Shown here one piece after another: positions 7,303 to 62,120 of a DNA stretch of 64,000 bases. Under the pieces are notes generated by a model, which did no database searches, was not told the origin of the DNA, and saw only the letters and a program-made list of their open reading frames with translations. The stretch spans positions 310,001-374,000 of the forward strand of contig MKSR01000029.1 in NCBI GenBank assembly GCA_001898145.1, given 5' to 3'. Origin of the DNA: Dyadobacter sp. 50-39 (GTDB taxonomy: Bacteria; Bacteroidota; Bacteroidia; Cytophagales; Spirosomataceae). The first letter of the stretch is position 1, and each line of letters begins with the position of its first letter. The position numbers and the translations under genes are program-made.

Positions 7303-7342
7303 AGACCGGATGTATTTCCTTGAAAAGATGAATTGTGACATT

Positions 7343-7374: not shown

Positions 7375-7406
7375 ATTTGATAATATTTATTTCAAATCAT
7401 ACGGGG

Positions 7407-8957: not shown

Positions 8958-8977
8958 TTGTATCAGAATTTTAGCAA

Positions 8978-11900: not shown

Positions 11901-12070
11901 GTATTCGTTCCCCTCGTAGTCCCTTTCACCAGGACGTTGGCACCGGGAAGACCGGCCCCGTTCTCATCACTGACTTTCCCCGTGACCTCCCGGTCCTGGG
12001 CTTGTGATGTGTTAATAAATAGTACTACCGACATAAATGCCAGTAGCACAAACTGTAAAGTTTTGCGCAT
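8978..12070 (-). CDS. SusC/RagA-family TonB-linked outer membrane transporter
   Basis: This SusC-type importer of 1030 residues heads the operon with SusD 7407-8957. It has a signal peptide (VVLFINTSQAQ), a carboxypeptidase-regulatory-like domain (VTGKVSDENGAGLPGANVLV), the junction GEVVVTALGISKE, a plug (NPDDIESINVLRGASATALYGSRAANG) and a barrel ending in LNLNLTF with the C-terminal Phe expected for BAM recognition. It is the closest relative in the window of the SusC at 579-3677. No Shine-Dalgarno-like sequence precedes the ATG, which is common in Bacteroidota. Confidence 0.97.
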   Translation of the reverse strand: MRKTLQFVLLAFMSVVLFINTSQAQDREVTGKVSDENGAGLPGANVLVKGTTRGTNTDAEGNFSLSINGAATLIISSVGYTSKEVAVSGSMTSVTISMDPDVRNLGEVVVTALGISKEQKTLSYATQMINTDNFAKARELNVANSLSGRVAGLDIVRSSSGVGGSSRVVLRGDRSITGNNQALIVVDGVPIDNSNFSPGNANGGRDASDGLSSINPDDIESINVLRGASATALYGSRAANGALLITTRKGAVRKGIGVNINSTFQVEKAMELQNFQNVYGQGVEGKFFPNSEFSWGPKMDGQQVAAWGPDPANKGKTFAYSPNPDSYKDFYSTGTSLANSVSLTAGNEKVQTYFSYTNTHAKGIVSNNKLDRHNFNLRLSSQVTSKLNFDGKITYLNENIENRQQTGEAFANLQRHILRLPRSISLEQAQDYEYIDPSSGRLLQNYWNPGSNGGQNPYWIKNRVLADDTRDRIYGFTSLSYKFLPWLTVMGRAGYDKYIDKFEGKWYTNTYTIADFGDYQTNWRDNSELNLDLFALISKEIGTDFKIDATVGGNVLKRDYLNHQTLNNGLNRDNLFVTTNARNSVTNRTVTQTRKQGVFAQADFIWKDALTVSASARNDWSSTLPKANQSYFFPSVGASAVLSSLFSMPQAISFMKIRGSLAQTGNDASPYLLAQTYSYIAGGANGYIIRDDTKPFPDLKPELTNAQEIGLEAKFLQNRIGFDLTLYNSNSKNQLFRVAIPPASGWSFQYINAGNVRNKGIEFMLNLVPVKTGDFSWNIDLNYARNINKVIELSETLKSYTLTSDFMNFVRAEEGRSLGQIYSRGYQRDDQGRIKVGTNGLPLVTSGTTVNLGTSRPTWTGGVTNRFSYKGINLSFLVSGRIGGVVTSFTNAVIYADGVTEETLAGRDGMVVDGVQADGTKNTVSTTAEAYWKFVGGRNTPIGEVFTYSASNIRLRELTLGYSLPQSLIGKSPFQNVALSLVGRNLFFIMNKAKGFDPELVAGSANTTVGLESFSMPPTRSLGLNLNLTF

Positions 12071-34151: not shown

Positions 34152-35930
34152 TCATTTATACGCAGGGTCTTGTGTGAGCGTAGCTGCTCCCGCCTTGTAC
34201 GACCGGTCGATCGCCTCCTGCGGAATCGGGAAAAACTCGTTTTTACCTTTGGTAAACACTGCACCCTTTTTGTAAACTCTTTTATTGGCTTCTACGGCCA
34301 CATAGGCATTCAGCACTTCCGAGGCGATGCCCCAGCGCTGGAGGTCGAAGAAGCGGTGGCCTTCCATGGCGAATTCGAGGCGAGTTTCAAAGCGTACCGC
34401 TTTACGGGCGGTAGCAGCATCCGTCCACGCCTGATCGTAAGTTTTGATGACGTAATTCGCCGCCGGCTCATTCACCACGGTATAATCATCCCTCGACTTG
34501 GATCCCTGGACCGCTTTTTTCACAAAACCAGCCGGGTTCGCAGCGCGGGTACGAATCTGATTGACAAGCTTCCTTGCGTTCTCAAGGTTGCCCAATTCCA
34601 CTTCGCATTCGGCCAGCCAGAGGAGCACCATCCCGTAGCGCATGATGCGGTAGTTGTTGCTCGAAAGGTTACCCCATCCGTTGATACCAAAACCCGCCTT
34701 TTCGGAAATGTGCTTCTTGGGCGAATAAGGGCCTGCATAAGTCTGGTCACGGATAAAGTCGCTGCCGTGAATTTTGAAATCCTTGAAAAGAATACCTCTG
34801 CGGCCAACGGTCTGATCCAGACGGGGATCCAGTGTGCCCGTGTAAGGCTCGAAAGGATCGCTGTATTTCAAGCCCTGGTCGTTTTTCACGTCGCTGTCAT
34901 TGAAATTATCCAGCATCGGCAAGCCTGTCGCGGTGGTTTTAAATGCATTTACGAGGTTTTGGGAAGGCTGGTAGAAACCGCAGCAGCCCCAGGGGTCGAT
35001 ATAAGGGTGAGCCAAACCAACACCTGCATCCGCCGCATCGCCCGACGCACTGGAAACCGCGTACTGGATTTCAAAGATCGATTCGGCATTGTTGCGGGTC
35101 GCGATCAGGAAGTTGTCTTCGAACTTCGGAGCCAGCGAAAACTTGCCGGATGCAACGATCTGTTCCAGAATAGGCTTCGCTTTTTGCAAAACAGCCACAT
35201 TGGCGGCACCGGTGGTGACGTTCCAGCCCTGGTACATGTATGCTTTGGCCAGAAAAGCGAGCGCAGCCCATTTGGTCGGGCGGCCCACCTGCGATTGTGC
35301 TTCGGGAAGCCCTTCCGACGCCGCTTTGAAGTCGGCTTCGATCATCGGCCATACATCCTTGTCGTTAGGCACCTTCGTACTTTCGAGATCGTCCAGTTTG
35401 TAAATGCTCTCATCAATGTAAGGGATCGTTTTCCACATTTTCTTGGCTTCAAAGTGGAACAATCCGCGAAGGAAACGTGCTTCGGCGATGATCTGCTTTC
35501 TGCGTGCGTCTGCCACTTCCGGCACTTCCGCCAGGGTGTTGATCACGTCGTTGGTACGGGCAATGCCTTTATACAATCCGCGCCATTTGTTTTTGATGTG
35601 GTTGTTGGTAGGCTGGAAATCCCATTTCTCGATAAACGATTGCTCGGGCTGGTCACCAGCGTCGGTACCCTTATAGGAATCGTCGGAAGCAAGCCCCCCG
35701 AAAACCCAGCTCTGGATGTCATTGTTCCACGAATCCTGGCCGTCGAGGCCCTGGCCATCGATCATCGCGTAGGCACCTATCAGCAAGCCTTCCACGCCCG
35801 AAGGTGTTTTGAGGGCCGTCGGGCTGTATTGTCCTTGCGGGTCACGGCTCAGGAATGAGTCTTTACAAGCCGAGACAGCCCCGATTGCCAGACCCACCGA
35901 TAGCATGTATTTTATAAGTCTTGAATTCAT
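34152..35930 (-). CDS. SusD/RagB-family nutrient uptake lipoprotein
   Basis: This is a surface glycan-binding lipoprotein of 592 residues, partner of the SusC 38 bases upstream. The lipobox Cys22 is in IGAVSAC-KDSFLSRDPQG. The TPR-like region contains RWRG..GIARTNDVIN-type sequence (WRGLYKGIARTND), ARFLRGLFHFEAKKMW and LAFLAKAYMYQGW. The C-terminal RFETRLEFAMEGHRFFDLQRWG and NEFFPIPQEAIDRS are classic SusD signatures. Vicinal cysteines occur at 316-317 (GCCGFYQPS), as in the SusD at 43303-45042 (NCCGFFQPS). The ligand is unknown. Confidence 0.96.
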   Translation of the reverse strand: MNSRLIKYMLSVGLAIGAVSACKDSFLSRDPQGQYSPTALKTPSGVEGLLIGAYAMIDGQGLDGQDSWNNDIQSWVFGGLASDDSYKGTDAGDQPEQSFIEKWDFQPTNNHIKNKWRGLYKGIARTNDVINTLAEVPEVADARRKQIIAEARFLRGLFHFEAKKMWKTIPYIDESIYKLDDLESTKVPNDKDVWPMIEADFKAASEGLPEAQSQVGRPTKWAALAFLAKAYMYQGWNVTTGAANVAVLQKAKPILEQIVASGKFSLAPKFEDNFLIATRNNAESIFEIQYAVSSASGDAADAGVGLAHPYIDPWGCCGFYQPSQNLVNAFKTTATGLPMLDNFNDSDVKNDQGLKYSDPFEPYTGTLDPRLDQTVGRRGILFKDFKIHGSDFIRDQTYAGPYSPKKHISEKAGFGINGWGNLSSNNYRIMRYGMVLLWLAECEVELGNLENARKLVNQIRTRAANPAGFVKKAVQGSKSRDDYTVVNEPAANYVIKTYDQAWTDAATARKAVRFETRLEFAMEGHRFFDLQRWGIASEVLNAYVAVEANKRVYKKGAVFTKGKNEFFPIPQEAIDRSYKAGAATLTQDPAYK

Positions 35931-35968
35931 ATATGTCGAATTTTTAAGATCAGAAGAATAACCGGTTA

Positions 35969-38900
35969 TCAGAATGACACGTTGAGGCCGACCAGGAATG
36001 TCCGTGAAACGGGCATGTAACCGCCGTCAAAGCCGAGGGTACGGTCTTCGCCCGTCTGGATTTCGGGGTTCAAACCGGTGTATTTCGTAACCGTGAAAAT
36101 GTTTTGTCCCTGCACATAGATCTGCGCGTTGCTGAAACCGATTTTCGCAGCGGCTGCTTTGGGCAAAGAGTACGTGAGCTGCACGTTTTTCAGGCGGAAA
36201 TAAGTACCTTTTTCAACGAAATAGCTCGAAGGACGGCTACTGATCTGGTCATCCGCATCCATAATAGGCACAGTACCTTGCTTGTGATCGGGCTGCCATG
36301 CATCGTACAATGCACGTTTGGCGCGGTTACCCTGGAAGGTATTGAAATCCGTGAAGTAGCGCAGGTAGCTGAATATTTCATTGCCCACCACACCATTACC
36401 GAACACAGTCAGATCGAATGCTTTATAACCGACATTCACGCTCATACCATACACAAAATCGGGGTGCGGGTTACCGATAACGGTCCGGTCGTCGTCCGTG
36501 ATCTTACCATCGCCATTGACATCCGCAATTTTGAATTTACCCGCCTTGTTGTAAGAGCCATAAGGCGCCCAGGCTTTCGCTTCTTCGTCAGACTGGAAGA
36601 TACCCAGCACCTTATAGCCGTAATAGGACGAAATCGGCAGTCCCGCCTGTGTGAGTGTAACCGCTGGCACGCGTGAACCGGCACCGAAGTACTTGGTATT
36701 GGCGCTTTCGTCGAGTTTGTCAACCGTGTTGCGGTACATCGAGTAGTTGAACGAAGCTCCGTAGCGCAGATCGCCTTTCATTGCCGTATTACGATATGAA
36801 AGCCCGAGGTCGATACCTTTGTTCGTCATCTGGCCTACGTTGAATGAAGGCGCATTTGCATCACCTGCCGTAAATGTAATCGGCGTCGAGAAAAGCATAT
36901 CGGTTGTTTTCCTGTTCCAGAAATCGAGTTCGAGGGTTAATGCGTCGTTCAGGAATGTCGCATCGAGACCGATGTTGTTCGAAGTAGTCGTTTCCCATTT
37001 CGCATTCGGGTTACCGAACGAAGACGCGTCATACCCAATTGTCGGCTGACTTCCCGAACCGTCGATCGGGTAACCTGCGTGGAAAATATCGGCCCGGTAT
37101 GTGGTGTAGGCATTGTAGTCCCCGATCTTCTGGTTACCGGTTTTACCCCAGCCATAGCGAAGTTTCATGTCATTGATAAAGCTCACCGATTTCATGAAGC
37201 TTTCATCCGACAAGCGCCAACCCACGCTGAACGCCGGGAATACCGCACTTCTGGAAGCTTGCTGGAAGCGGGAAGACGCATCGTTACGCAGGATGAATTG
37301 GAACAGGTATTTGTCCGCAAATGCATAGTTAACCTTTCCGAATTGCGAGTAGAGGCTGTAATCGCGGTTCACACCACCATAGTTGGTCGCTTTTGTCGCG
37401 TCGCCAAGGTTCAGGTAATTGATAATCGATGGAATTTCAAATGCGTAACCCGAACGCGCAGCGCCGAATTCTTCGGCAAACTCACGAATCGCTTCAATCC
37501 CCACGTACGCATCCACTTTGTGGTTAGTACCGAAATTATGGGAGTAGCTTAAAGTGTTCGTCCATACCCATTGGTAAGAATATTTGCTGGTTGCATTCGA
37601 ACCGTTGTTGAAGCTACCTTCTACGTATTCAGGGTTGGCACGGCCGATATAGCGGCCCCGTTCGCTTACGCCGTCGATACCAAGGCTTGTTTTTACCGTC
37701 AGGTTGGGGATAATGTCGAATTCGCCGTAGATGTTACCGAATGCACGCAAGCGGTAAGTCCGGTTATCTTTTTGGCGATACAACGTCGCATAAGGGTTGG
37801 AGTTGTTACCAAGGTTCAAACCGCGCGAACCGGCGAAATTGCCTTTGATATCATAAATAGGCAGCAAAGGGTGGTGCTTGAAACTACCTGAGACAGCATT
37901 CTGCTCGTCGTTGTTTCCGAAACCGCCTTTTCTGTTATCGAACGAAACCGCCAGGTTCTCACCTACCCGGAAACGCTTGTTGGCAGTAGAGAATTCGGTG
38001 TTGGCGCGAACAGTATAGCGGTCGTACCCGATGAATTTCACAACACCGTCCTGGCTGAAATAACCCACAGACAATGCATAACGGCTGTTTTCAGTACCGC
38101 CTGTGGCCGATAGCTGATAATTTTGAATGGGTGCTGTACCGGTGACTTCTTTCCACCAGTTAGTATCTGATGCTTTGGTAATCGCGTAAATGTTACCCGG
38201 CACGAGCGAATACTTGGCAGGATCTACGTCCGGCGTACCTTCTTTGCCTTTGCTTGGGAAAACGTAATCCGGGATAGTCACTTCACCGTTTGGCCCGTAA
38301 GTATACTGGCCGTGAGAAGGAGTTTTACCCGCATACTTGTCTGCCAGGTAGAGGTATTGACCCAACTCTTTGGCATTCAAGGCCTCCACATCGTTGTAAG
38401 CCTTCTGTGTCCCATAATAGGCATTGAAGGAAATTACAGGCTTACCGACCTTACCACGTTTGGTGGTGATGATCACGACCCCATTCGCCGCGCGTGAGCC
38501 GTAAATGGAGGCCGAAGACGCATCTTTCAGGATCTGGATCGTCTCGATGTCGTTGGGGTTGAGGTTACCCTGGTTCTCGGTCGGCACGCCGTCGATGATG
38601 AACAGCGGGTCGTTGTTACCGATTGTACCGAACCCCCGTATACGTACCGTAGCATTACCGCCCGGCGTTGCGTCGTTCACGATGTTCAGACCCGACGCGC
38701 GACCTTGCAATTGCTGTGCAAAAGTGGTGGCTGGAACGGATTGCAGGTCCTTTGCATTCACGGTCGTTACCGAGCCGGTAATGTCACGCCGCGACTGCGA
38801 GCCATACCCCGTCACAATCACTTCTTCCAGCGCGCTCACGTCGCTGGTCATCGTAACGTTTATCACATTCCGATTGCCTATCGCCACGTCCTTGGCCGAA

Positions 38901-39157
38901 TAACCAATAAAAGAAAAAACAAGAACCTGGGCGCTGGCGGGCACTTTAATCGAATAATTGCCGTCCGCGTCCGTCGTGACGCCAATGGTCGTCGAACCTT
39001 TTAGTGTGACCGAAGCTCCCGGCAGGCTTGAACCAGATTGATCATCCACTACCTTTCCGGTAATGGTGATGTCCTGCGAGAAAGCTGTCAGTGAGGTGAG
39101 GAAAAGGAGCACGCAAAAAACCAGCCTGCTTCCCAGGTGAAGGTAGTTGTGTTTCAT
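35969..39157 (-). CDS. SusC/RagA-family TonB-linked outer membrane transporter
   Basis: This SusC importer of 1062 residues has a signal peptide (LTSLTAFSQ), a carboxypeptidase-regulatory-like domain (ITGKVVDDQSGSSLPGASVTL), the standard junction EEVIVTGYGSQSRRDITGSV, a plug (QQLQGRASG, NPNDIETIQILKDASSASIYGSRAANG) and a barrel ending in VGLNVSF. It is followed by its SusD. It is the intact counterpart of the broken SusC at 45094-48327, with which it shares QQLQGRxxG and the VTG junction. The start codon is preceded by ACCTGACTAA, a sequence that also precedes two other susC genes here. Confidence 0.97.
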   Translation of the reverse strand: MKHNYLHLGSRLVFCVLLFLTSLTAFSQDITITGKVVDDQSGSSLPGASVTLKGSTTIGVTTDADGNYSIKVPASAQVLVFSFIGYSAKDVAIGNRNVINVTMTSDVSALEEVIVTGYGSQSRRDITGSVTTVNAKDLQSVPATTFAQQLQGRASGLNIVNDATPGGNATVRIRGFGTIGNNDPLFIIDGVPTENQGNLNPNDIETIQILKDASSASIYGSRAANGVVIITTKRGKVGKPVISFNAYYGTQKAYNDVEALNAKELGQYLYLADKYAGKTPSHGQYTYGPNGEVTIPDYVFPSKGKEGTPDVDPAKYSLVPGNIYAITKASDTNWWKEVTGTAPIQNYQLSATGGTENSRYALSVGYFSQDGVVKFIGYDRYTVRANTEFSTANKRFRVGENLAVSFDNRKGGFGNNDEQNAVSGSFKHHPLLPIYDIKGNFAGSRGLNLGNNSNPYATLYRQKDNRTYRLRAFGNIYGEFDIIPNLTVKTSLGIDGVSERGRYIGRANPEYVEGSFNNGSNATSKYSYQWVWTNTLSYSHNFGTNHKVDAYVGIEAIREFAEEFGAARSGYAFEIPSIINYLNLGDATKATNYGGVNRDYSLYSQFGKVNYAFADKYLFQFILRNDASSRFQQASRSAVFPAFSVGWRLSDESFMKSVSFINDMKLRYGWGKTGNQKIGDYNAYTTYRADIFHAGYPIDGSGSQPTIGYDASSFGNPNAKWETTTSNNIGLDATFLNDALTLELDFWNRKTTDMLFSTPITFTAGDANAPSFNVGQMTNKGIDLGLSYRNTAMKGDLRYGASFNYSMYRNTVDKLDESANTKYFGAGSRVPAVTLTQAGLPISSYYGYKVLGIFQSDEEAKAWAPYGSYNKAGKFKIADVNGDGKITDDDRTVIGNPHPDFVYGMSVNVGYKAFDLTVFGNGVVGNEIFSYLRYFTDFNTFQGNRAKRALYDAWQPDHKQGTVPIMDADDQISSRPSSYFVEKGTYFRLKNVQLTYSLPKAAAAKIGFSNAQIYVQGQNIFTVTKYTGLNPEIQTGEDRTLGFDGGYMPVSRTFLVGLNVSF

Positions 39158-39576
39158 CGTATTTAGTCAGGTTAATATAGATACTGTGCCCAAAAATATT
39201 CATTTGCAATCATTAAATAATCTAATAAATCCAAAATATATTCAATCAAATATCAAATTGTATTATTCCATTATAATAAGCGTAAATGCATTGATCTTTT
39301 CCAAGAAATAAACGATGATTAAAATATATTTTAATCCAATTTTAATTTCGTTTCAAATAAGTGTCATGTTTACAAATAACACAAAATCAGCTATTTATAG
39401 TAAAAAATAAGTTACAAAATCACGATACAAGCCCTCAGCCTGAAAGGATAAAATATCTATCTGCGGTCGTCGCATTGTTTTTAGGCAGTGTTGAATAAAT
39501 TTATATAATTAACTTAAATATTCACATTTCATACTTTACCGATTTTACCCACACATTGGAAAATTCATATTTCAAC
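39158..39576. other. AT-rich intergenic region upstream of susC
   Basis: These 419 bases are very AT-rich. Next to susC lie the leader motif ACCTGACTAA and a -7 box (39191-39198). Beyond that I see no ORF, RNA gene or strong hairpin up to the terminator of the FG-GAP gene at 39577. Confidence 0.5.
39191..39198 (-). promoter_or_regulatory. -7 box of susC
   Basis: The minus strand has TATTTTTG, an exact TAnnTTTG match, 33 bases before the susC start codon. No good TTG is present 19-21 bases upstream. The broken susC at 48327 has a TAGATTTG box at nearly the same distance. Confidence 0.38.
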
Positions 39577-39604
39577 AAAAAAGCCGCTGTGGATCACAGC
39601 GGCT
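39577..39604 (-). terminator. Terminator of the second FG-GAP lipoprotein gene
   Basis: The stem AGCCGCTGTG / CACAGCGGCT with a GAT loop is followed on the minus strand by TTTTTT, 43 bases past the stop at 39648. Confidence 0.88.
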
Positions 39605-39647
39605 GTATTACGATCATGCGCACCCGAGGTGCGTGAAAGCATATTAC

Positions 39648-42600
39648 CTATTTCAATTCCCTTTTATTCCCTTTCGAATCCGTCACGGTTACCTTCGAAA
39701 CATACTCCGGAAGGAACAGCGAATGGCTCGACTGCGAAAGGAACGATGAACCATACCCGGGTTCTTCCCGCCTCGACTTTCCATTCTTCAAATGCAGCAA
39801 TGCGGATGTTTCTCCCAGGCCCAGGCCGATTTTTCGCGTCGGTTTGGTGGCACGGTGGAAGCGCAGCAGCTCACGGTTCTGCGAGGTGACTGACAGCCAG
39901 TTCCCGTCCGATGATGCCACGCGCACGAGGCCCTTCATATTCCCTCCGGCCATATAGCCACTTTCCGAAATACCGAGCGGGCGAAACCCTCCCTTACCGT
40001 CACCTTTAAGGATCAGGCCATACAATGCATCGTACCGCCCTACCGACACCTCTGAGCCATAATCATTCCCCGAAAGCATCACATCCAGGTTTCCGTCCTG
40101 ATCAAAGTCGTCGGCAATCATACCAAACAATGGAGCGAACTGCGCTTGAACGGGCAATTCCCGCAATGCAAACTTTCCGCCGCCCTGGTTCTCGATATAA
40201 CTGCTCTTCATCCAGGTAGCCGTCAAATGCAATGCGTCTTTCAACTCCTCCTGTTTCAGAATGTTGTCCAAACCCGACTCCGCAAACTTGCCATATTCCT
40301 GAAACCGCTGGCGGACCTGGATCACCTGCTTACCCATATCGTCACGCGTGTTGTATGGGAATTCTTTATAGGTATCGTCCTGTGCCCGGTAAAACACGGT
40401 GGGAATGGCGTCAAAGTATCCGTCGTTGTTAAAATCCTTCGCGTAAACGCTCACCGGGCGGCTTTCCGAAGCCCTGCAAAGCGTATTCATTCCCAGGTTG
40501 CCGCCTATGTAATCCATATCGCCGTCGTTATCGAAATCGCCGGCCACGAGACTTCCCCACCAGCCTTTCTTCCCTTCGAGTCCGGTTGTAATCTTTTTAA
40601 ATTTACCTTTATCATTTTTCAGGAAGGTCAATGGCATCCATTCACCGGCCAGCAGAAGATCGGCCCAGCCATCGTTGTCGTAATCGGTCCAGAGCGCGTC
40701 ACACACTAGCCCAATACTCGCGAGCTCAGGCGCTAAGGCATTCGTTACGTTGGAAAACCGCACCGTGCCTCCGTTGGAATCGTTGCGCAACAGATAGCTC
40801 GAAACCGGCTTGGGATATTTCCCCGACTCCACCCTTCCGCCGACAAATAAGTCGAGATCGCCATCGCGGTCAAAATCCACTGCTTTCACGCAGGAACCAT
40901 TCACCAGGAATGCAGGCAATGCCGCACTGTCGCGTGTAAAATGCCCCTTCCCGTCATTGAGATACAATGCATGCTTTAATGCATCCGAGCCGTCCTGGAT
41001 TTCGTAGCTCCCGCTCACGATGTACAGATCCAGATCCTGATCGCGGTCGGCATCGAAAAGCAGTACACCCATATCCTCCGAAGTTTTCTCGAACCCCTCA
41101 GGCCCCGGAAGCAAGTCCGATACGGTGAATTTGCCATCGGGGCGTTGGAGCAAAAACCGTCCCTTGTGGAGGTATGCCCCACCCACGAACAAGTCTTCCA
41201 GCCCATCGCCATTCACATCTCCGGCCGCAAGCGCCGGCCCATATTGGGACATTTTGTGCGGCAAAAGCTTCTGCACATTAAAATCGATAATATCCGTCTC
41301 CTCATGGCGATAGGATACGCTCAAATCCGCCGTTATATCCGAAAACAGCGGTGCTGCCGGCGCTGCGTCAGGCGTGGGAAGCAACACAGCATCTTTCTCG
41401 TTCACTACCAGCACCTGGTTCGCGTTTACATTTTTCAGCACCTGGCTTTTTCCGCCTGGCCATGTAACTTTCACTTGCTGCACCGCCTTTTCCTTGCCCA
41501 ACCCGAAATGCAGCACCGGTTCCACGGTCGACAAATATCCCCGGTAAGGAGAATTCTCCGCAACCTGCCTCTTGCCGCTTGCATCGGTGATTTCTGCAAT
41601 GGCGCCAATTCCCGCCCCATTGTAACGATCACCTCTAAACGCAATGCGTAAATAGTTGCTTTCGGCCGGTTTGAGTTGAATGCTGTTGTTGCGATAGACC
41701 ATCGCCGAATCATTGATATTGTTGACGATGTAGTCCAGGTCGCCGTCGTTGTCCAGGTCAGCATAAGCGGCTCCGTTCGAAAATCCGGGTGTTTCGATGC
41801 CCCAGTCACTGGTTACGTCGTCGAAAGCGAGATTGCCTTTATTCTTGAATGCAAAGTTCCTGATCCTGACGCTCGGAATATAGTCAAGCATCATCATAGG
41901 CGCCATAATACTGGAAACTTCATTGCGGTAGGCGATAAAATCGAGATCGGTAATGTCTCTCGGGAAGCCGTTTGTGATGATAATATCACGAAGCCCGTCA
42001 TTATCGAAGTCCGTAACCATCGGAGTCCAGCTCCAATCCGTTTCGGCAATGCCGGTAAGCAAGCCTATTTCACTAAAAACAGGCGACTTACCATCGCGTG
42101 CAGGACTTCCCATATTCAGCTGGAAAGTATTCCTGGCGACCTGGTATTGGTAGCCAAACAGGTCGTTGTTCTGATACGTCACGTAGCTGTTCGCGGGCGT
42201 CATCATCTTTTTCCGACGGTTCGTCGCCGGCATCATATCTACCGCCACCACATCTACAAGCCCATCGTTGTTGAGGTCGGCCACGTCATTGCCCATCGCC
42301 GAATGCGATGTATGTTTGAAATAAGTGGCAGCCTGGTCGGTGAAAGTCCCGTTGCCGTTGTTGATGTAGAGAAGGTCATTGGTGAGGTAATCGTTGGTAA
42401 TGTACACGTCCTTCCAGCCGTCCTGGTTCACATCCGTTACATTGAGGCCCAGGCTGAAACCCTCGATCAGAATCCCTGCTTCTTTGGATACATTGGTAAA
42501 AACGGGATGGTTGAGTTTGGCGTCCCAGTCGTTGCGGTACAGCCTGTCGGTGCGGCGCGACGAGCCGTCGACGATCTTCTTATGGTATTTGTTGGGAAAA

Positions 42601-43199
42601 TTATTGTCATCCATTTCATTGACGATCATGAACAGATCCAGGTCGCCGTCATTGTCATAATCAAAAAATGCGGCGTTAGTGGTATGTGTCGTATCGGCGA
42701 TACCATATTCCTTACCCATTTCCTTGAATACCGGCACATTATCCTTCCCAACTCCCTGGTTCACATAGAGCAGATTCTCGCGCTGCTGCGCCACCTCACG
42801 CACCGATGCGCACACGTAGATGTCCAATAGTTTGTCATTGTTGATGTCTACCAATGCCACGCCCGTCGACCATTTATTTTCAGGTGCAACCCCGGCCTTG
42901 GAGGTCACGTCCTCAAATTTGAAGTCTCCCTTGTTCAGATAGAGTTTGTTCGGAACCGTGTTACCGGTAAAATACACATCCGGCAGACTGTCGTTATTAA
43001 AATCACCCAGCGCCACACCTCCTCCATTGTACACGTACTCGAATGCGAGGATGTTCATGGTGTCATTTTCGGCAATCCGGTTCGCGAACCGGATACCTGT
43101 TGCACCGGCAGGCAGTTCGGTGAAAGTTTTCAGCTCCTTTTTACAGGAAACAAGCAGGACAGAGCCCACCAAAAGAGGAAGAAAGCGCTTAACGAACAT
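39648..43199 (-). CDS. Large FG-GAP/VCBS-repeat lipoprotein with ASPIC/UnbV domain (CRTAC1-like)
   Basis: This predicted surface lipoprotein of 1183 residues has lipobox Cys19 (VGSVLLVSC-KKELKTF). FG-GAP repeats with calcium loops occur throughout (DFNNDSLPDVYF, DINNDKLLDIYV, DLDNDGDLDYIV, DFDQDGNLDVML). An ASPIC/UnbV segment lies in the middle (LHFGLGKEKAV...VTWPGGKSQ). It begins like its paralogue at 4009-7302 (GVALGDFNNDSLPDVYFTGN versus GVAAADFNNDGLIDLYFTGN) and has the same place after a susD gene. A role as surface-exposed binding partner of the SusCD complex is inferred. A terminator-like hairpin at 43247-43276 separates it from susD, and its SusC is interrupted. Confidence 0.93.
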   Translation of the reverse strand: MFVKRFLPLLVGSVLLVSCKKELKTFTELPAGATGIRFANRIAENDTMNILAFEYVYNGGGVALGDFNNDSLPDVYFTGNTVPNKLYLNKGDFKFEDVTSKAGVAPENKWSTGVALVDINNDKLLDIYVCASVREVAQQRENLLYVNQGVGKDNVPVFKEMGKEYGIADTTHTTNAAFFDYDNDGDLDLFMIVNEMDDNNFPNKYHKKIVDGSSRRTDRLYRNDWDAKLNHPVFTNVSKEAGILIEGFSLGLNVTDVNQDGWKDVYITNDYLTNDLLYINNGNGTFTDQAATYFKHTSHSAMGNDVADLNNDGLVDVVAVDMMPATNRRKKMMTPANSYVTYQNNDLFGYQYQVARNTFQLNMGSPARDGKSPVFSEIGLLTGIAETDWSWTPMVTDFDNDGLRDIIITNGFPRDITDLDFIAYRNEVSSIMAPMMMLDYIPSVRIRNFAFKNKGNLAFDDVTSDWGIETPGFSNGAAYADLDNDGDLDYIVNNINDSAMVYRNNSIQLKPAESNYLRIAFRGDRYNGAGIGAIAEITDASGKRQVAENSPYRGYLSTVEPVLHFGLGKEKAVQQVKVTWPGGKSQVLKNVNANQVLVVNEKDAVLLPTPDAAPAAPLFSDITADLSVSYRHEETDIIDFNVQKLLPHKMSQYGPALAAGDVNGDGLEDLFVGGAYLHKGRFLLQRPDGKFTVSDLLPGPEGFEKTSEDMGVLLFDADRDQDLDLYIVSGSYEIQDGSDALKHALYLNDGKGHFTRDSAALPAFLVNGSCVKAVDFDRDGDLDLFVGGRVESGKYPKPVSSYLLRNDSNGGTVRFSNVTNALAPELASIGLVCDALWTDYDNDGWADLLLAGEWMPLTFLKNDKGKFKKITTGLEGKKGWWGSLVAGDFDNDGDMDYIGGNLGMNTLCRASESRPVSVYAKDFNNDGYFDAIPTVFYRAQDDTYKEFPYNTRDDMGKQVIQVRQRFQEYGKFAESGLDNILKQEELKDALHLTATWMKSSYIENQGGGKFALRELPVQAQFAPLFGMIADDFDQDGNLDVMLSGNDYGSEVSVGRYDALYGLILKGDGKGGFRPLGISESGYMAGGNMKGLVRVASSDGNWLSVTSQNRELLRFHRATKPTRKIGLGLGETSALLHLKNGKSRREEPGYGSSFLSQSSHSLFLPEYVSKVTVTDSKGNKRELK

Positions 43200-43246
43200 C
43201 AGGCAGGTGCAATAAATTAACAGAATCAGGATACTTCGAAAGTAAG

Positions 43247-43276
43247 AAAAGGAGATGGTAAATACATACCATCTCC
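43247..43276 (-). terminator. Terminator-like hairpin between susD and the FG-GAP gene
   Basis: GGAGATGGTA / TACCATCTCC with loop AATACA reads on the minus strand into TTTTCTTACTTT. It lies about 30 bases past the susD stop and about 50 bases before the FG-GAP start, so it should attenuate read-through. A copy of ACCTGACTAA precedes it. Confidence 0.72.
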
Positions 43277-43302
43277 CATAAATTAGTCAGGTTTGAAAAT
43301 GC

Positions 43303-45042
43303 TTAGAAACCAGGGTTCTGTTTCAGAACATCAGTTCCCTGAAGGTCAATCTGTCCTTGTGGTATCGGCAACAATTCATATTTGGTCGCAAACTTGGCAT
43401 TACCCAATGCACCGGTCAGCTTTTTGGACTCGTAAGTGAGGTATGCATTGAGCTCTTTGTCAGCAACTCCCCAGCGCACCAAGTCGTAGAACCGGTGTCC
43501 TTCCAGGTTGAGTTCGAGCTTCCTTTCAAACCTTACAGCAGCGCGGGCCGCTTCTTTATCTGTCCAGGCAGTTTTGTAAGTACCGATCACATATTTCGCC
43601 GCCGGCGCACCGCTTTTCATTACAAAACCATCCGGATTTGCAGCGCGGGCACGCACCATGTTTACATATTCACGTGCTTTTTCCAGTGTACCTGCTTCAA
43701 TTTCAGCTTCCGCCGCCATGAGAAGTACATCGGCAAAACGGATCACCGTGTAATTGATGGCGGTATAGCCGGGTGTCCATGAGCTGTTATCCTGCAAAGA
43801 ACCCACGTCTGTTTTATAATAAGCGAACTTTTTGGGGCTATACGGCCCCCCGTTTGCCTGGTTACGGATCCAGTCTGCGCCCGGGTGATCGATCCAGTCA
43901 AGGAACGGGATACCGCGACGACCTACTGAATGGTCGAGGCGCGGATCCAGGTTACCGGCATCAGGGGTGAATTTGTCTTTGGAGAGCAAACCCATATCCG
44001 ACACCACTGCATTCTTGTCGGAATTGTACGAACCATCGAGCAGCGGCAAGCCGTTGGCGTCGGTGCGGTGCGAGTTTACCATTTCAAAGCTGGGCTGGAA
44101 GAAGCCGCAGCAGTTACCAGGGCCATTTGCACCGGTGTTGTAAGGCCAGTTAAGGTCAAACTCAGGGTTCGCATTGTTCACACTACCTGTATTGGCCGCA
44201 GCCTGCACTGCAAAAACAGATTCCGTATTGTTGTCATTCGAAGCACGGAACACGTCGGCATATTTAGGCACAAGCGCATATTTTTTACCATTGGTAGTCT
44301 GGCCGCTCGCGATGATCTGATCGAAGAGCGTTTTCGCTTCCTGGTATTTCTTTTGATAAAGATATGCTTTGGCCAGGTACGAAGCCGCCGCCCATTTGTT
44401 GGCACGTCCTACCGCATCCTGTGTTGCGGGCAGGTTATCGAAAGCGAATTTAAAATCCGCCTCGATTTTCGGCCAAAGGTCTGCATCGTTTTTCACTTTC
44501 TCTATGCCGGAGCCGTAGTCTACCGACTCGTCCACATATGGCGTATTACCGTATGTTTTTTTCAGCTCAAAATAATAGTGTCCGCGTAAAAAGCGCGCTT
44601 CCGCAGAGATCCGCGTCTTGGTGGCGTCTGTCACTTCGGCATCAGCTTTGGCGACGAGGCGCAGCACAGCATTCGCACGGGAAATCCCTTCATAGTTACC
44701 CTGCCATTTTTCGGCGATAACCCCCTGTGTGCTCAGGTATTCGTAGCGCTGGATCGGGTTAATGTCACTGTAATCGCCGGGGTCGGTACCTTTATTGGCA
44801 TCCCCGCCGCGGATACTTCCCCAAACCCAGTTGCTTGGGCTGGCCATCCTGCCCCCTGCGCCCTTGCCGTTGATCTGGCCATAAACGGCGATCAACGCAC
44901 CTTCAAGCCCTTTTGTGGAGGTAAGAAGCCCTTCACTCACCGCGCCAGTGGCCGGTTTTTCCAGAAAACTTTCTTTGCAGGAGAAAAACACCGTCATGAC
45001 GCCGGCGACAATCACCATACTATTAGTTAATATCTTTTTCAT
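43303..45042 (-). CDS. SusD/RagB-family nutrient uptake lipoprotein
   Basis: This SusD-type surface lipoprotein of 579 residues has lipobox Cys22 (GVMTVFFSC-KESFLEK). Typical segments are WQGNYEGISRANAVL, ARFLRGHYYFELKKTYG, AASYLAKAYLYQKKY and, near the C-terminus, RFERKLELNLEGHRFYDLVRWG and YELLPIPQGQIDLQG. Cys311-Cys312 lie in NCCGFFQPS, matching the SusD at 34152-35930. The gene is intact although the susC directly upstream (52-base gap) has a stop codon in its junction motif. Confidence 0.96.
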   Translation of the reverse strand: MKKILTNSMVIVAGVMTVFFSCKESFLEKPATGAVSEGLLTSTKGLEGALIAVYGQINGKGAGGRMASPSNWVWGSIRGGDANKGTDPGDYSDINPIQRYEYLSTQGVIAEKWQGNYEGISRANAVLRLVAKADAEVTDATKTRISAEARFLRGHYYFELKKTYGNTPYVDESVDYGSGIEKVKNDADLWPKIEADFKFAFDNLPATQDAVGRANKWAAASYLAKAYLYQKKYQEAKTLFDQIIASGQTTNGKKYALVPKYADVFRASNDNNTESVFAVQAAANTGSVNNANPEFDLNWPYNTGANGPGNCCGFFQPSFEMVNSHRTDANGLPLLDGSYNSDKNAVVSDMGLLSKDKFTPDAGNLDPRLDHSVGRRGIPFLDWIDHPGADWIRNQANGGPYSPKKFAYYKTDVGSLQDNSSWTPGYTAINYTVIRFADVLLMAAEAEIEAGTLEKAREYVNMVRARAANPDGFVMKSGAPAAKYVIGTYKTAWTDKEAARAAVRFERKLELNLEGHRFYDLVRWGVADKELNAYLTYESKKLTGALGNAKFATKYELLPIPQGQIDLQGTDVLKQNPGF

Positions 45043-45093
45043 CGATTCCGAATATTAATGATTCATTCAATGTAGAAACAGCCTGTTCAGAGA

Positions 45094-48000
45094 TTAGAAA
45101 CCAAGGTTTACACCGAAAACCCAGCTTCTTGTTACAGGATAGTTACCCACATCGATCCCGAATTGCGTGTCCGCGTTACCACCCACACCCGGGTCAAGGC
45201 CCTGGTATTTGGAGATTGTGAAAATGTTGTTCGCTGAGGCATAGAATCTCAGTTTCTGCATTTTCAGCTTGGCCAGCAACGTTTTGGGCAGGTTATAGCC
45301 CAGCGAAATATTCTGCATTCTTACATAGTTACCGTTCTCTACATAGAAAGAGTTGGCCTGTGTATTGGTACTGAAGTTCGAAGCGCTTTCAAAAATAGGG
45401 ATAGTAGCACCGGTGTTCGATGGCGACCAGGAATCTTTCACCCTCTCGCTGATAGCCGCACCTGCGAACGATGGATAGAAGTCCGTAAACCATTTAGACG
45501 CATTGAAAATCTTGTTACCAACCGAGGTATACATATAAGTTTCAATCTCGAAGTTCAGGTAAGTGAGTTTGAGGTTCAAACCGCCTGTGAATTTCGGAAC
45601 AGGGCTACCGAGATATTTACGGTCGTCGGCGTTGATCACATTGTCGCCATTCACGTCTTCGTAACGGAAGCGACCGATGCCTTTACCATCCTGTGCCGGT
45701 GCACGATCCACTTCTTCCTGCGTTTGGAACAGCCCTGTTACTCCATAGCCATAGAATGCGGAAAGCGAATAGCCCAGTTGGTTACGGATCGGCTGAAGAC
45801 CGCGATAGCCCGGGTTGATACCCGCGAGGTATTTGTCGCCACCCAGGTCACCAATTTCGTTTTTGAGCACGCTACCAGTCACATTCAGCTCGTAGCCCAG
45901 CTTGCTGCCGGCCTTTCCTTTGGTGATCACCTGGAAGTCGATACCCTTATTGGTAATCGTTCCCGCGTTCACGTACGGAGGCGTCGCACCCGAGCCTACC
46001 ACTGCCGGTACACCTTTCTGGAACAGCAGGTCTTTGGAATCTTTTTGCCAGAAGTCGAGGATTACATCCAGTTTGCCGTTCAGGAATGTCGCGTCAAAAC
46101 CGATGTTTTTCGTTACGCTGGTTTCCCATTTAGCATCGGCATTGCCCAGTTTGCTGCGATAGTATCCTTCGGCGGCGCTGGTGTTGGAACCTGTAATGTC
46201 GTAAGCTGATGTTCCGATACCCGCAGAGTAGAGGCTGTACTGGTTATCGGGACGCACCGCATTGGAGTTACCCATTGTACCATAACCTCCGCGGATTTTC
46301 AGGTCGCTCAGGAAAGTAACACCTTTCATGAAGTTTTCGGAAGTAACACGCCATGCTACCGATACCGCCGGGAATACCCCGTAACGGTTGGCGGCACCGA
46401 AGCGTGATGAACCGTCGCGACGCAGCACCCCGGAAACAATGTACCGGTCATTGAAGATGTAATTCAAACGACCGAAGAGTGAGTAGAATGTCACCCCGTT
46501 GTCGAGCTGGCTGTTGGTCACTTTCGACGATACGTTCGACATGTTCACATAGTTGATGTCATTCGAGAACGGGTTCAAACCAGAAGCCTGCAAATCGCGG
46601 CTCTTGCCGGTGTTCAATGCTTCCTGGCCTACCAAAACGTCCAGGTTGTGCAAGCCGAAAGTCTTCCGGTATTGCGCGGTGTTGGTAAACGTCCACGCAA
46701 AGCGATAGCCGGAACCTTCGCCATAACCTACGGCCGAGTTGTTTTCTGAGTTCTCGTACTGGCGGCGTGAGTAGTTCCAGTAAGTGTAGTTATTGTACTG
46801 ACCACCCAGGCTGGAACGCAATGTCAAGTTCTCGATCGGATCGAATTCCAGGTATACATTACCAAAGCCGTTGGCATTGAATGCATTGTTATTTTTCATA
46901 CCATCCCGGGTCGCCACTGGGTTTCTCGGGTTGTTGAAACCTTTTGCCGCTGTTCCCGCATAGCCGCCAAACTCATCGTAAACAGGGATGATGGAAGGCA
47001 TCCGGAATGCGCTGAGGATATCATTTTCATCGTTTGCAACACCCTGGCCGTTGTTGGCACCACCGATACCCAGCACCTGGCGGTAAGTACCCTGGATATT
47101 TTCTCCGAACCGAAGATTTTTAAGGATGTTGAATTCGGTATTTACACGGAAAGTGTAGCGTTTGAAGCTGTTGTTCAAAAGAATACCTTTCTGATCCTGC
47201 AAGCCAAGGCCTACGAAATAGCGCCCATTTTCACCACCGCCTGAGAAACCCAGCGAGTGGCGGGTCACGGGCGCTGTGCGGGTGATGGCATCGTACCAGT
47301 CAGTACCGGCCCGGTTGGCCCTCACCACCTGATAAACGGAACCCGCCGTAGGATCTACGTTGTATTTTTTACGTTCTGCTGCCAGATCGACATTGCCGGT
47401 CACGCCGTACGTTCCGCCCACCATCAGGTAGTCGGGAATGACAGGTGTTGCGCCGGTTCCAAACTGCGGGTGCGTCCAGTTCTGATCGCCTGGTTTCCAG
47501 CCTGAGTTGCGGAACGCATTCCAGGTCCAGTCTGCAAAATCAGTCGGGTTCATCATTTTCTGGCCACTGCCCGGAGTCGTAAAACCAACGAGCCCGTCAT
47601 AGGTCACGCTCAGCTTCCTGTTGCGGGTTCCTTTTTTGGTGGTATAAACGACCACACCCGCCGCTGCGCGTGCACCATAAATAGATGCTGCGGCTGCATC
47701 CTTAAGGACAGTGGTCTGGTCGATATCGTCCGGATTGAGGAAGTCCGTAGAACCTACGGGTACCCCGTCGACAATATACAATGGTTCATTAGCCTCGAAC
47801 GAACCGAAACCGCGTACACGGATCTGGCTGTTCGTACCGGGCTGACCATTCGTAATAACAGTCACCCCTGCAACACGTCCCTGCAACTGCTGCTCCACGT
47901 TTCCGGAAGGAACTGCTGTAAGGTCCTTTGCTTTAACGAGCGCTACCGACCCGGAAGTTTCGCGGCGTTTGTCGGTCGTTTAACCGGTTACAACCACTTC

Positions 48001-48327
48001 TTCCAATGCCGCTACGTCGTCCTCCATTTTCACATCGAGCACCGATTGGTTGCCCACAGTGACCTCTTTCGTTTTGTAGCCGACAAAGCTGATGACGAGC
48101 ACATCTTTGTCCGACCTGACATTAATTGCAAAACGACCCTCCGCATCGGTATTCGACCCGATCTGCGTACCCTTGATCAAAATGGTAGCTCCGGGAATTC
48201 CTGTACCCGCGGGATCTGACACTACGCCAGTCACCCTCCGATCCTGTGCAAAAGCCGAAAAAACGGTGAAGAAAATGAGGAGGAAAGTGAAGCAACCCCG
48301 GACGGGATCTTTGTAGATTATTTTCAT
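45094..48327 (-). pseudogene. SusC/RagA-family transporter interrupted by an in-frame TAA
   Basis: This is a full-length SusC frame of about 1078 codons with one internal stop. Codons from 48327 give the signal peptide, regulatory-like domain and EEVVVTG. The next codon, 47980-47982, is TAA, followed in the same frame by TTDKRRETSGSV, QQLQGRVAG, the plug and a complete barrel ending in FGVNLGF. The expected residue is Tyr (VTGY), so a single base change of TAC or TAT explains it. The apparent restart at GTG 47898 lacks a signal peptide and half of the junction and plug start, so a separate functional protein is unlikely. The downstream SusD and FG-GAP genes are intact. A sequencing error, recent mutation or read-through are all possible. 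Confidence 0.85.
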
Positions 48328-48675
48328 ACTCCTTAGTTAGGTTAATAATTTATTAGGCACATCAAATCTATCACTATTTAATCAAAATATTATACATAGA
48401 AAAGCCCAGTTTTTATTTTTTGACAGAATAGTACTAAAAATGGATAAAATAATGTCACATATATTCACCTTTGGTTACTTATTGGTTTCATCTCAAAAAA
48501 GCGCCTTAATCGTTTAAGGAGAGCATTTTTATACGATATTACCCTAACAAGTGCAAAAAATGGTTACAAAACAGGTACAGCACCCCCCATTGGAAGATGT
48601 GCCGTGGCAGGCACTCACAAAGTAGTGAGTGATATTCGAGAAGGTTACGGATATTAATATACGCAAAACGAAATG
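48328..48675. other. Intergenic region upstream of the interrupted susC
   Basis: This 348-base gap is AT-rich next to susC, with the leader ACCTAACTAA directly before AGGAG and the ATG. Near the other end, CACTCAC / GTGAGTG (48612-48631) forms a 7-bp stem with a 6-base loop but no T-run. No ORF or RNA gene is supported. Confidence 0.5.
48363..48370 (-). promoter_or_regulatory. -7 box of the interrupted susC
   Basis: TAGATTTG on the minus strand matches TAnnTTTG and lies 35 bases before the start codon, close to the 33 bases at the susC of 39157. No clear TTG lies at the right distance. Confidence 0.38.
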
Positions 48676-49815
48676 CTACTCGTCGCGTTTCCAGTCGGCT
48701 GGGAGGAGATTAGAGAAACGGTCGTTGCCGAGATCTCCGGCGATTTCGAAACCCATCGGCATCACTACCCAGCCTTGCGGCGTGATGACCATATATCCTT
48801 GGGGAAGCGTGATCTGAGTGTAGGCATAGGGCATATCGGCATAAGGAGACCTGCCATGCCGGTTCATATTGAAAACTTCGAGCTGCGTGAGCGACACTAC
48901 CAGCCGCTCCGTCGACAATTCTCCCGGCCGCACCAAGCGCATACCTCGCACCGGCTCGATGCGGTTGTGAATGTGGTTCGTGATGGCATTATAGCCATTG
49001 GTACTTCGCACCGATTTAAATATGCGGAGAGAATCGGGAATGGCCTGAAAAACCTTGAAGCCTTGTTCCTGCAAACTATCCGCCACCATGCTGGTCAGCA
49101 AATGCTTAAGTGAGCCTTTATAAGCCTCTTTCTGGTTGGCCCGCCAGAGCTTGCGCTGCGCGTCGTCTTTCGGCACCAGCAATTCAAAACGCGTGGCACC
49201 GCCGTAATAGACTTTTCCGTTGAAATAATCAAAATCATCCAGATCCTGGTGAATGCGGTACCCCAGCGCGTAGTTCTCTATAATGAGCGGCTTGGTGGTT
49301 TGCGCACCCAAATGCCCGTCGTCATCCTCGGAGATGCGCAGTGCTTCCGGATTGACCACTTTGCACAGCTTGCTGAATTTCCCACGTCCGAGCAGTTCCC
49401 GGATAATGATCTTCAAATGCTTCTCCCGCTTCTTATTCTTCTTGGCCACAATGGTCACGCCTTTCAACTCCTGCCCTTCCCGCAGTTTGAAAACGACGGT
49501 CTTCGTTCCAGGCTGTTCAAAACGCAGGGTTTGCTTCACAGTCTCATACCCAAGAAACGACACCACCAGTTCCAGATTCCCCACTGCCAGGTTCGGCAGC
49601 CGGTAGTTGCCGTTTTCATCCGAATTGGTCCCTATGGTGGAATTATTGATAAATACATTGGCGAATGGCAGCGGCTTTCCGGTCTTTTCGTCGGTAACCC
49701 TGCCTGTGAGGGTAACCGTGCCAGCCTGTTGTGCGTACGTGCAGGTACACCACAGGATAACGATCAATGTCAGTAAGCAACGGTGAAGGGATATGCGGTT
49801 CTGGATCGGGTGCAT
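48676..49815 (-). CDS. Exported carboxypeptidase-regulatory-like domain protein
   Basis: This protein of 379 residues has a signal peptide (ending CTCTYAQQA) and one carboxypeptidase-D-regulatory-like beta-sandwich (about 32-115: LTGRVTDEKTGKPLPFANVFI, NGNYRLPNLAVGN). A larger C-terminal region of the kind found alone in many Bacteroidota follows, without a TonB barrel. Motifs include IIENYALGYRIHQDLDDF and VYYGGATRFELL. The function of this family is not known; an outer-membrane or periplasmic role is assumed. The start is ATG 49815, with TTG just before it. It follows the SusCD-lipoprotein group but has its own -7 box at 49838-49845. Confidence 0.85.
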   Translation of the reverse strand: MHPIQNRISLHRCLLTLIVILWCTCTYAQQAGTVTLTGRVTDEKTGKPLPFANVFINNSTIGTNSDENGNYRLPNLAVGNLELVVSFLGYETVKQTLRFEQPGTKTVVFKLREGQELKGVTIVAKKNKKREKHLKIIIRELLGRGKFSKLCKVVNPEALRISEDDDGHLGAQTTKPLIIENYALGYRIHQDLDDFDYFNGKVYYGGATRFELLVPKDDAQRKLWRANQKEAYKGSLKHLLTSMVADSLQEQGFKVFQAIPDSLRIFKSVRSTNGYNAITNHIHNRIEPVRGMRLVRPGELSTERLVVSLTQLEVFNMNRHGRSPYADMPYAYTQITLPQGYMVITPQGWVVMPMGFEIAGDLGNDRFSNLLPADWKRDE

Positions 49816-49837
49816 CAATGTTCAAAGCTTTAAACCT

Positions 49838-59242: not shown

Positions 59243-61933
59243 TTATTTACTGATCTCCACCGGCTCTTTCTCGATCGCCGAATACTGCTCTTTGGCAGTT
59301 TTGTGGATCAGCTCAGCTACGAGGCCTGTCCAGCCCGTCTGATGGCTCGCCCCGCATCCGCGGCCATTGTCGCCATGGAAATACTCATAAAACAGGACGT
59401 GGTCATTAAAATTAGGGTCTTTCTGCATTTTCTCATCGTGACCGTACACCGCGCGCTTTCCTTCCGAATCCTTCTTGAAAATGTCGATCAGGCGGCAAGC
59501 AATGGCTAATGCGGCATCCTTGATCGTGGTGAGGTTTCCCGAATTCGTCGGATACTCAATCATGAAATCCTCGCCGTAGTACGAGTGGAACTTCATCAGG
59601 GAGTCGAAAATCAGGTAATTGAGCGGAAACCAGATCGGCCCGCGCCAGTTGGAGTTACCGCCCATAATGTCGGTTAATGCCTCCGCCGGCGTATAATCGA
59701 CTTGCAGCACTTCTCCGTTGATATAAAACTTGTAGGGGTTCTCCTCGTGGTATTTGGACAATGCGCGCACGCCGTAATCAGACAGGAACTCGCTTTCGTC
59801 GAGCATCCGTTTCATGATCATCTTCATCCGGTGCCCGCGCAGGATAGACAGCAACCGGTTTTCTCCCTTACCTGATTCAAACCAGCGGGAAATCAGCCTG
59901 GCCAGGTCCGGCCGGTTGGCCAACACCCATTCTACCCGGCGTTTGAATACCGGCAGTTTGTCCAGGTTTTGCGGGTCAAGGATTTCCACGGCAAAAAGCG
60001 GTATCAATCCAACAATCGAACGGACTTTCAACAAAATGCTCTGGCCGTTCGGAATGTGGATCACATCGTAATAGAACTGATCCTCTTCGTCCCACAAACT
60101 GATGGACGAGCTTTTACCGCCAATCGACTCCATCGCGCCCGCGATGTGCAGGAAGTGCTCGAAGAATTTGGAAGCCATATCCTGGTACACACCATGCACC
60201 AGCGCCACTTCGACCGATATCCGAAGCATATTAAGCGTGTACATCGCCATCAACCCCGTCGCATCGGCCTGTTGCAGCTTGCCGCCGAACGGCATGGGTG
60301 TGGACCGGTCGAATACGCCGATGTTATCCAGCCCCAGGAAACCGCCGCTGAATATGTTATTGCCGGTATCGTCCTTCTGGTTGACCCACCAGGTGAAGTT
60401 CAGCAACAGTTTATGGAATATCTTTTCCAGAAATTCAATATCCCCTACTCCATTGTTCTGCTCGCGGTCAATTTCATATACTTTCCACGTCGCCCAGCCA
60501 TGTACCGGCGGGTTTACGTCGGAGAAGTTCCACTCGTACGCGGGTATCTGCCCGTTCGGGTGCATGTAATATTCACGCAGGAGGATTTCAAGCTGCCTTT
60601 TGGCAAAGCCGGCATCCACGCGGGCCAGCGGCACGCAATGGAAGGCTAAATCCCAGGCCGCAAACCATGGGTACTCCCATTTATCGGGCATGGAAATGAT
60701 ATTCGCCGCATACAAATGCTTCCAGCCGGAGTTCCGGCCCCATTTCCTGCCCTGGTTAGGCCCGGGCTGGGCGGGATCGCCTTTCAGCCATTCATACACA
60801 TTATAATAGTAGAACTGCTTGCTCCAAAGCATTCCGGCATATGATTGCCGTTGGATCGAGCGAAGATCGGCGTCTGCCACGTCGCGCTGCAAATCGTCAT
60901 AGAACTCATCGGCTTCCCGTATTCTCTTGGTAAAAAAGTCCTCGAAACCGCCGAATGGCTCCGAAATGGAATGATTGACAAAACGCAGGCGGAATGTAGC
61001 GCTTTCGCCGCCTTTGATAGTCTTGGTAAAGCGGGCAGCCGCTTTTGTACCGATATTGTTCGGATTGACCGTATTCGATTTCTGGCCGCTTACGATGTAA
61101 TCATTGATACCGTCCTTGGGATAGGCCGTGTTATTGGCAGTACCGTACAGCTTCTTGAAGTTGGTCTCATTCTCACAGAACAGCAGTTCGTCCGCGCCGT
61201 CGAGGTAAAGGTTATACTTCCCGTGTTTACGGTGCGTCACTTCGATCAGGCGGTTTGAAATACCGTTCATGATCGGCTTGTAGTTGAACGCCTCGTATCC
61301 CCACGACCACGTGTTCCGGAACATAATCTGCGGCAGCACGGTGATCGGCGCTTCGTTCGTCCCGCGGTTAAAAACCGTCACTTTCATGAGAATGTCCTCC
61401 TCGTCGGCCTTGGCATGCTCAATGAAAATGTCGAAATACTCGTCGTTATCGAACACACCTGTATCCATGATCTCGTACTCCGGGTCCTGTTTGCCCCGGC
61501 GCCCGTTTTCCTGACGCAGCTTGTCGTACGGAAACGGCTGCTGCGGGTATTTATAGAGCATTTTGGTGTATGAATGCGTCGGCGTGCTGTCGAGGTAGTA
61601 ATACATCTCCTTCACATCCTCACCATGATTCGACTCCCTGTTGGTGAGACCGAAAATCCGCTCTTTGAGTATCTTGTCTTTATGGTTCCAGAACCCGAAT
61701 GAAAGACATATATGCTGCTTGTTATCAGAAAAACCCCCGATTCCGTCTTCCCCCCAGCGATATGCTTTGGAAAGGGCCATTTCATGGGTTATATAGTTCC
61801 AGGCATCGCCGTTTCCACTATAATCCTCCCGTACCGTGCCCCATTGGCGCTCCGACAGGTAAGGTCCCCATTTCTTCCATCCCTTGTTTTCTTTTTGAAG
61901 ACTTAACCTTACTTTTTCAGCTCCTTGTGCCAT
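59243..61933 (-). CDS. Cytosolic glucosidase, MGH1/GH63-like glycoside hydrolase
   Basis: This (alpha/alpha)6-barrel glycoside hydrolase has about 896 residues and no signal peptide. Landmarks are the N-terminal HLSERQWGTVREDYS-type region (YLSERQWGTVREDYSGNGD), the active-site segments WAAWDLAFHCVPLARVD and EWNFSDVNPPVHGWA (candidate catalytic acid Asp), and the C-terminal GGNSNWRGPIWFPLNYL. These are typical of the MGH1-like/GH63 group, which includes glucosidases and mannosylglycerate hydrolases. I start at ATG 61933 (MAQGAEKVRL); 24 further in-frame codons upstream look non-homologous. It is co-directional with the phospho-sugar mutase. The exact bond cleaved is not predictable. Confidence 0.9.
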   Translation of the reverse strand: MAQGAEKVRLSLQKENKGWKKWGPYLSERQWGTVREDYSGNGDAWNYITHEMALSKAYRWGEDGIGGFSDNKQHICLSFGFWNHKDKILKERIFGLTNRESNHGEDVKEMYYYLDSTPTHSYTKMLYKYPQQPFPYDKLRQENGRRGKQDPEYEIMDTGVFDNDEYFDIFIEHAKADEEDILMKVTVFNRGTNEAPITVLPQIMFRNTWSWGYEAFNYKPIMNGISNRLIEVTHRKHGKYNLYLDGADELLFCENETNFKKLYGTANNTAYPKDGINDYIVSGQKSNTVNPNNIGTKAAARFTKTIKGGESATFRLRFVNHSISEPFGGFEDFFTKRIREADEFYDDLQRDVADADLRSIQRQSYAGMLWSKQFYYYNVYEWLKGDPAQPGPNQGRKWGRNSGWKHLYAANIISMPDKWEYPWFAAWDLAFHCVPLARVDAGFAKRQLEILLREYYMHPNGQIPAYEWNFSDVNPPVHGWATWKVYEIDREQNNGVGDIEFLEKIFHKLLLNFTWWVNQKDDTGNNIFSGGFLGLDNIGVFDRSTPMPFGGKLQQADATGLMAMYTLNMLRISVEVALVHGVYQDMASKFFEHFLHIAGAMESIGGKSSSISLWDEEDQFYYDVIHIPNGQSILLKVRSIVGLIPLFAVEILDPQNLDKLPVFKRRVEWVLANRPDLARLISRWFESGKGENRLLSILRGHRMKMIMKRMLDESEFLSDYGVRALSKYHEENPYKFYINGEVLQVDYTPAEALTDIMGGNSNWRGPIWFPLNYLIFDSLMKFHSYYGEDFMIEYPTNSGNLTTIKDAALAIACRLIDIFKKDSEGKRAVYGHDEKMQKDPNFNDHVLFYEYFHGDNGRGCGASHQTGWTGLVAELIHKTAKEQYSAIEKEPVEISK

Positions 61934-62120
61934 TAATCCGTCAATTTTACGAAAGGAATGAATTTCAATAATTACCCAATTTAGAAAACCGGCTTTCAAA
62001 AACACCAGAAACCGGTAGAAAATTGAAAAAATTTAACAATCGGGAATGTGGTTTAAAGCAGCCACAAAACGACCCTTAAATGACTCATAATGAGCCACAG
62101 AAGTCACCAGCGAATACTTA

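Follow-up and report, generated by a model that had tools for sequence, protein, structure and literature searches.

The susC gene described here lies on the reverse strand of a 64,000-nucleotide stretch of the Dyadobacter sp. 50-39 genome (the window, meaning the whole stretch that was analysed) and is interrupted by a single in-frame TAA at the junction between its N-terminal extension and its plug. We put the chance at roughly three in four that this is a very recent nonsense mutation, found in one genome, in an otherwise conserved Dyadobacter susC within an operon that is otherwise intact. The stop is absent from every relative examined, so that susC has most likely been switched off very recently, or a base has been misread; we infer that the TAA is real in the living strain, which we take to be a soil-type bacterium. 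Recoding at the stop and a selected free domain are not supported, and we regard the interrupted susC as an ordinary case. Its main value is that of a clean negative, in which a stop that catches the eye by lying at a domain boundary comes down to a single-genome stop in a gene constrained until now; it is also a small example of ongoing nutrient-transporter loss. In annotation the gene should be marked as interrupted, and a functional SusCD pair should not be predicted.

The interrupted susC frame

The frame (Table 1) is that of a full-length SusC of 1077 codons with one TAA inside. After the stop it picks up as TTDKRRETSGSV in the same frame and is open to the SusC C-terminus. The first-pass annotation had described a full SusC frame with a single TAA after EEVVVTG and no frameshift, and sequence and translation bear this out: no frameshift is present at the junction within this frame. 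In Pfam searches, residues 32-113 of the 115-aa piece matched CarbopepD_reg_2 (PF13715, 1.1e-20), and the 961-aa piece opened with Plug (PF07715, 5.9e-21), with no barrel match at E<=0.001. Along its entire length the 961-aa piece shares 98% identity with SusC from five Dyadobacter genomes, in every one of which the frame is open and 1080-1084 aa long. Pfam therefore agrees with the earlier placement of the cut between a regulatory-like domain and the plug; since the 115 residues include the signal peptide and the TonB-box-like EEVVVTG, the position can be refined to just behind the TonB box. As 255 of 1049 susC codons (junction codon excluded) are one base away from a stop, a stop at the domain boundary is a post-hoc coincidence that carries modest weight.

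Table 1. Features of the interrupted susC locus, and two other interrupted Dyadobacter SusC genes
Feature	Position	Strand	Evidence or remark
susC frame (TonB-dependent SusC-like transporter), 1 stop inside	45094..48327	-	translation, genus comparison, Pfam
Premature in-frame TAA at conserved Tyr position, behind TonB-box-like EEVVVTG	47980..47982	-	sequence, relatives
115-aa remnant before TAA: signal peptide (by eye), N-terminal extension PF13715, TonB-box-like motif	47983..48327	-	ORF list, Pfam
Part after TAA: plug PF07715 and barrel, 961 codons, open	45097..47979	-	ORF list, genus comparison, Pfam
Partner susD (PF07980, PF14322), intact, 51 bp downstream of susC	43303..45042	-	Pfam, sister frames
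FG-GAP / UnbV_ASPIC repeat protein, intact, 103 bp after susD	39648..43199	-	Pfam, sister frames
Second susC-susD cassette, intact (susC2 35969-39157, susD2 34152-35930)	34152..39157	-	Pfam, sister frames
Dyadobacter SusC with one in-frame stop (L085)	G030:C1:663243-666119		TAG 211 codons behind plug start
Dyadobacter SusC with one in-frame stop (L086)	G027:C30:509236-512115		TAG 513 codons behind plug start

The locus has the arrangement of a SusC-like transporter, with a PF13715 extension followed by a PF07715 plug and a SusD partner downstream; the uninterrupted reading frame is missing. Translation would end after the N-terminal extension and the TonB box, before the plug, so that, barring read-through of the stop, the cell would make neither plug nor barrel; a SusCD pair lacking both should not transport. 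The partner susD and the FG-GAP gene, correctly called intact in the first pass according to both Pfam and the sister frames, would probably be partly silenced by polarity.

The junction codon in relatives

The genus comparison covered 48 genomes, and the 150 matches listed held 31 orthologues in addition to the window's own row. Among these matches a Tyr codon stands at the junction in all 31 orthologues from other genomes of the genus (69-98% aa identity), 29 of them (L005-L033) examined in one reading and two (G039, G025) in a motif search; Tyr had been named beforehand as the expected residue. The ten named-record orthologues at >=68% identity (L035-L044), six of which are already counted in the genus set and four of which are new (two Runella, one Arsenicibacter, one Siphonobacter), carry a Tyr codon as well. 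Three distant named records have no stop at this place, two of them (L045 and L046) reading VVVGYG and the third (L047) having a different motif. With one genome per species compared, the stop is thus private to one lineage while its relatives are intact, as in a pseudogene; a stop conserved in relatives together with the downstream frame, the pattern of read-through, was not found.

Recurrence was searched with the pattern E-E-V-[VIM]-V-T-G followed by TAA, TAG, TGA or TGG in 222 genomes of the family, and, with TAA or TAG alone allowed after the motif, in an order sample of 390 genomes. The junction motif with a stop occurred in 1/222 and 1/390 genomes, in both cases the genome of the broken susC, and no other stop behind the exact motif was found in the 533 distinct genomes (79 common to both searches). 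The reversed control pattern gave one match in the family search, in G022. The motif followed by Tyr, counted in the genus, gave 55 matches in 41 of the 48 genomes, so recurrence within the genus would have been detectable. Single in-frame stops elsewhere in Dyadobacter SusCs were seen in 2 of the 150 rows among the matches listed (Table 1). These two genes resemble the present one in that a single in-frame stop breaks a frame of full length, as in recent nonsense pseudogenes, and differ from it in that their stops are TAG codons inside the gene, whereas the window's stop is a TAA at the junction.

Selection on susC and age of the stop

Substitutions were counted by branch for the window, five sisters and the outgroup L010, over the 88 codons that lead up to the junction and the 961 that follow it, with the stop masked; L012 was dropped (its barrel is two codons longer) and L011 served in the tree alone. 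On the window's own branch the polarised changes number 44 synonymous and 4 non-synonymous, the latter in 3 codons, and the sister branches hold 21:0, 28:3, 16:1, 43:5 and 26:8 (synonymous:non-synonymous; pooled 134:17). Under neutrality about 143 non-synonymous changes are expected on the own branch against the 4 observed, and loss of function can therefore cover at most about 3-7% of it, the neutral (non-functional) share being <=2.7%, or 6.5% when the background is ignored (95%; a rough count). Pairwise dN/dS against the five closest sisters is 0.055-0.097 for the N-terminal piece (90 codons) and 0.012-0.017 for plug and barrel, and susC, susD and the FG-GAP gene have similar values (0.018-0.027; window and two sisters).

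By these counts susC evolved under strong purifying selection, and relaxed selection has as yet left no sign. Given the constraint on the own branch, the stop is very young, or unreal, or not obeyed, the last being the least likely. The low non-synonymous count by itself is equally expected from a sequence error or from efficient read-through. The first-pass annotation had offered three readings of the stop: a fresh inactivating mutation gains support from a stop in one genome only and a gene otherwise fully constrained, a sequencing error is the main rival, and regulated read-through or recoding with a free secreted domain fares badly, as set out below.

Alternative explanations

The main rival is a one-base consensus or assembly error, with susC intact in the living strain, which we consider unlikely though still worth serious attention. 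It predicts exactly what is seen in the rest of the gene, namely full constraint, and the genome is a 7.7-Mb draft in 48 contigs. The quality of the surrounding sequence speaks against it. Sister frames were mapped on the window, starting at ATG, of >=150 aa and kept at >=75% identity (those below were dropped), with 92-100% coverage; 28/29 frames of D. jiangsuensis and 24/26 of D. endophyticus were uninterrupted, a few of them probably antisense. The interrupted frames are the broken susC in both species and a second D. endophyticus frame, whose stops lie upstream of the start codon of the corresponding window gene, at 27069. Poor assembly is therefore unlikely, but one wrong base could still have gone in. 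The usual errors of draft assemblies are indels in homopolymers, which a lone substitution amid clean sequence does not resemble.

That the TAA is read through, by a near-cognate tRNA-Tyr or a suppressor, to give mainly the free N-terminal domain and a small amount of complete SusC, we hold to be highly improbable. The intact and conserved frame behind the TAA would fit such regulated read-through or recoding, as would the fold around the stop, which is better than in shuffles of the window sequence (z -2.3; second run -1.93). The relatives, however, have no stop at this site, the TAA being common to no relative examined, and TAA does not usually count as a leaky stop codon. Among 36 tRNAs typed none has the anticodon TTA, CTA or TCA; as scoring took in the best 150 of the 301 candidates from the first look, and tRNA-Ile is absent from those typed, this set is not complete. 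Nor is the fold special, since the five closest sisters give z values of -0.72 to +0.69 at the same site, the small 5-bp stem predicted at the junction recurs in the predictions for L006-L009, all without the stop, and elsewhere the window's own susC has a stretch with z -2.73. Of the more distant relatives, L010, L012 and L013 lie at -0.30 to +0.46, and L011 (-4.22) and L016 (-2.01) are low, with different predicted structures. Across the 11 sequences folded there is no consistent recoding structure at the stop, and no conserved stimulatory structure. The hairpin at z -2.3 was accordingly rejected as a recoding signal, as the closest sisters do not bear it out. Re-initiation was also rejected: the first in-frame start after the TAA is GTG 47898, inside the plug and without a signal peptide.

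Loss of the transporter with selected retention of the free secreted N-terminal domain, the 115-aa product being functional, finds very little credence with us either. Secretion of the product is to be expected and its PF13715 domain is complete where it ends, and stand-alone PF13715 genes do occur, as a 125-aa gene on contig C41 of the same genome and as frames of 104-131 aa in three other Dyadobacter genomes. In the own genome, however, where the best 150 of 195 PF13715 candidates were scored, 148 matches lie in frames of >=381 aa and only 2 in frames <381 aa, these being the broken susC piece and the unrelated C41 gene. In neither the family nor the order search does a stop recur at the junction position, which, with the relatives lacking it, tells against the 115-residue secreted domain proposed in the first pass. 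We know of nothing that an isolated PF13715 domain does on its own.

Finally, we give next to no credence to a stop kept in the living species as a switch, yielding mostly free secreted extension with its TonB box and a trace of transporter through misreading of the TAA, in which case the free extension and TonB box might occupy TonB.

The C41 gene itself (L078:4784-5158 (-), identical with G000:C41:13283-13657) encodes a stand-alone PF13715 protein of 125 aa that has a hydrophobic stretch at its N-terminus and is not followed by a plug. At 1e-25 it has matches in 6/48 genus genomes, its own included; its relatives are three short frames (94, 74 and 64% identity; 131, 104 and 130 aa) and two in SusC-length frames. 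From its sequence it appears to be a natural free-standing extension domain.

Comparison with known systems and possible backup copies

The closest parallel considered is Bt1763 of the Bacteroides thetaiotaomicron levan locus, which, in the part of PMC7782687 available to us, is alike in its PF13715 extension, TonB box, plug, barrel and adjacent SusD, the TonB box being VDEVVV in Bt1763 and EEVVVTG in the Dyadobacter SusC. According to the same part of that paper, removal of either the N-terminal extension or the TonB box by itself is enough to prevent normal growth on levan, so that the domain matters within the transporter, a further point against a free function. The Dyadobacter SusC differs in that its frame ends right after the TonB box, so that it would lack the entire channel, and it would be expected to be inactive. 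The nonsense mutations reported in the available portion of PMC11501099 hit an anti-sigma gene. A literature search found no published stop at this SusC junction, a result of little weight.

Among the own-genome matches listed there is no close copy that would cover the loss of SusC; the best other match, among 18 of 113 own candidates scored, has 41% identity. Functional backup by the neighbouring susC2 was considered and rejected, as it shares only 36% identity with the broken SusC. A plasmid-borne close copy was sought by megablast in a plasmid collection, from which records of the own genome are possibly excluded, with no match.

Other features of the window

Two SusCD regions, each with a large FG-GAP/UnbV_ASPIC protein, are present in the window, at 4009-12070 and 34152-48327 (-), and our search found no literature on this combination. 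The frame at 59243-62005 was suspected to be another cut SusC and was rejected, its translation (by eye) not being that of a SusC. The window contains no tRNA genes and no Rfam match at gathering scores, and pattern scans for promoters and terminators, which were set aside, gave 20 and 24 sites where shuffles had 15.2 and 17.7. The gene directly upstream of the broken susC, at 48676-49818 (-), codes for a protein of 380 aa that carries PF13715 at its N-terminus and is intact by comparison with two sisters. The leader upstream of susC (48327-48450 (-)) is well conserved among nine aligned Dyadobacter sequences, which suggests that it may hold conserved promoter or leader elements.
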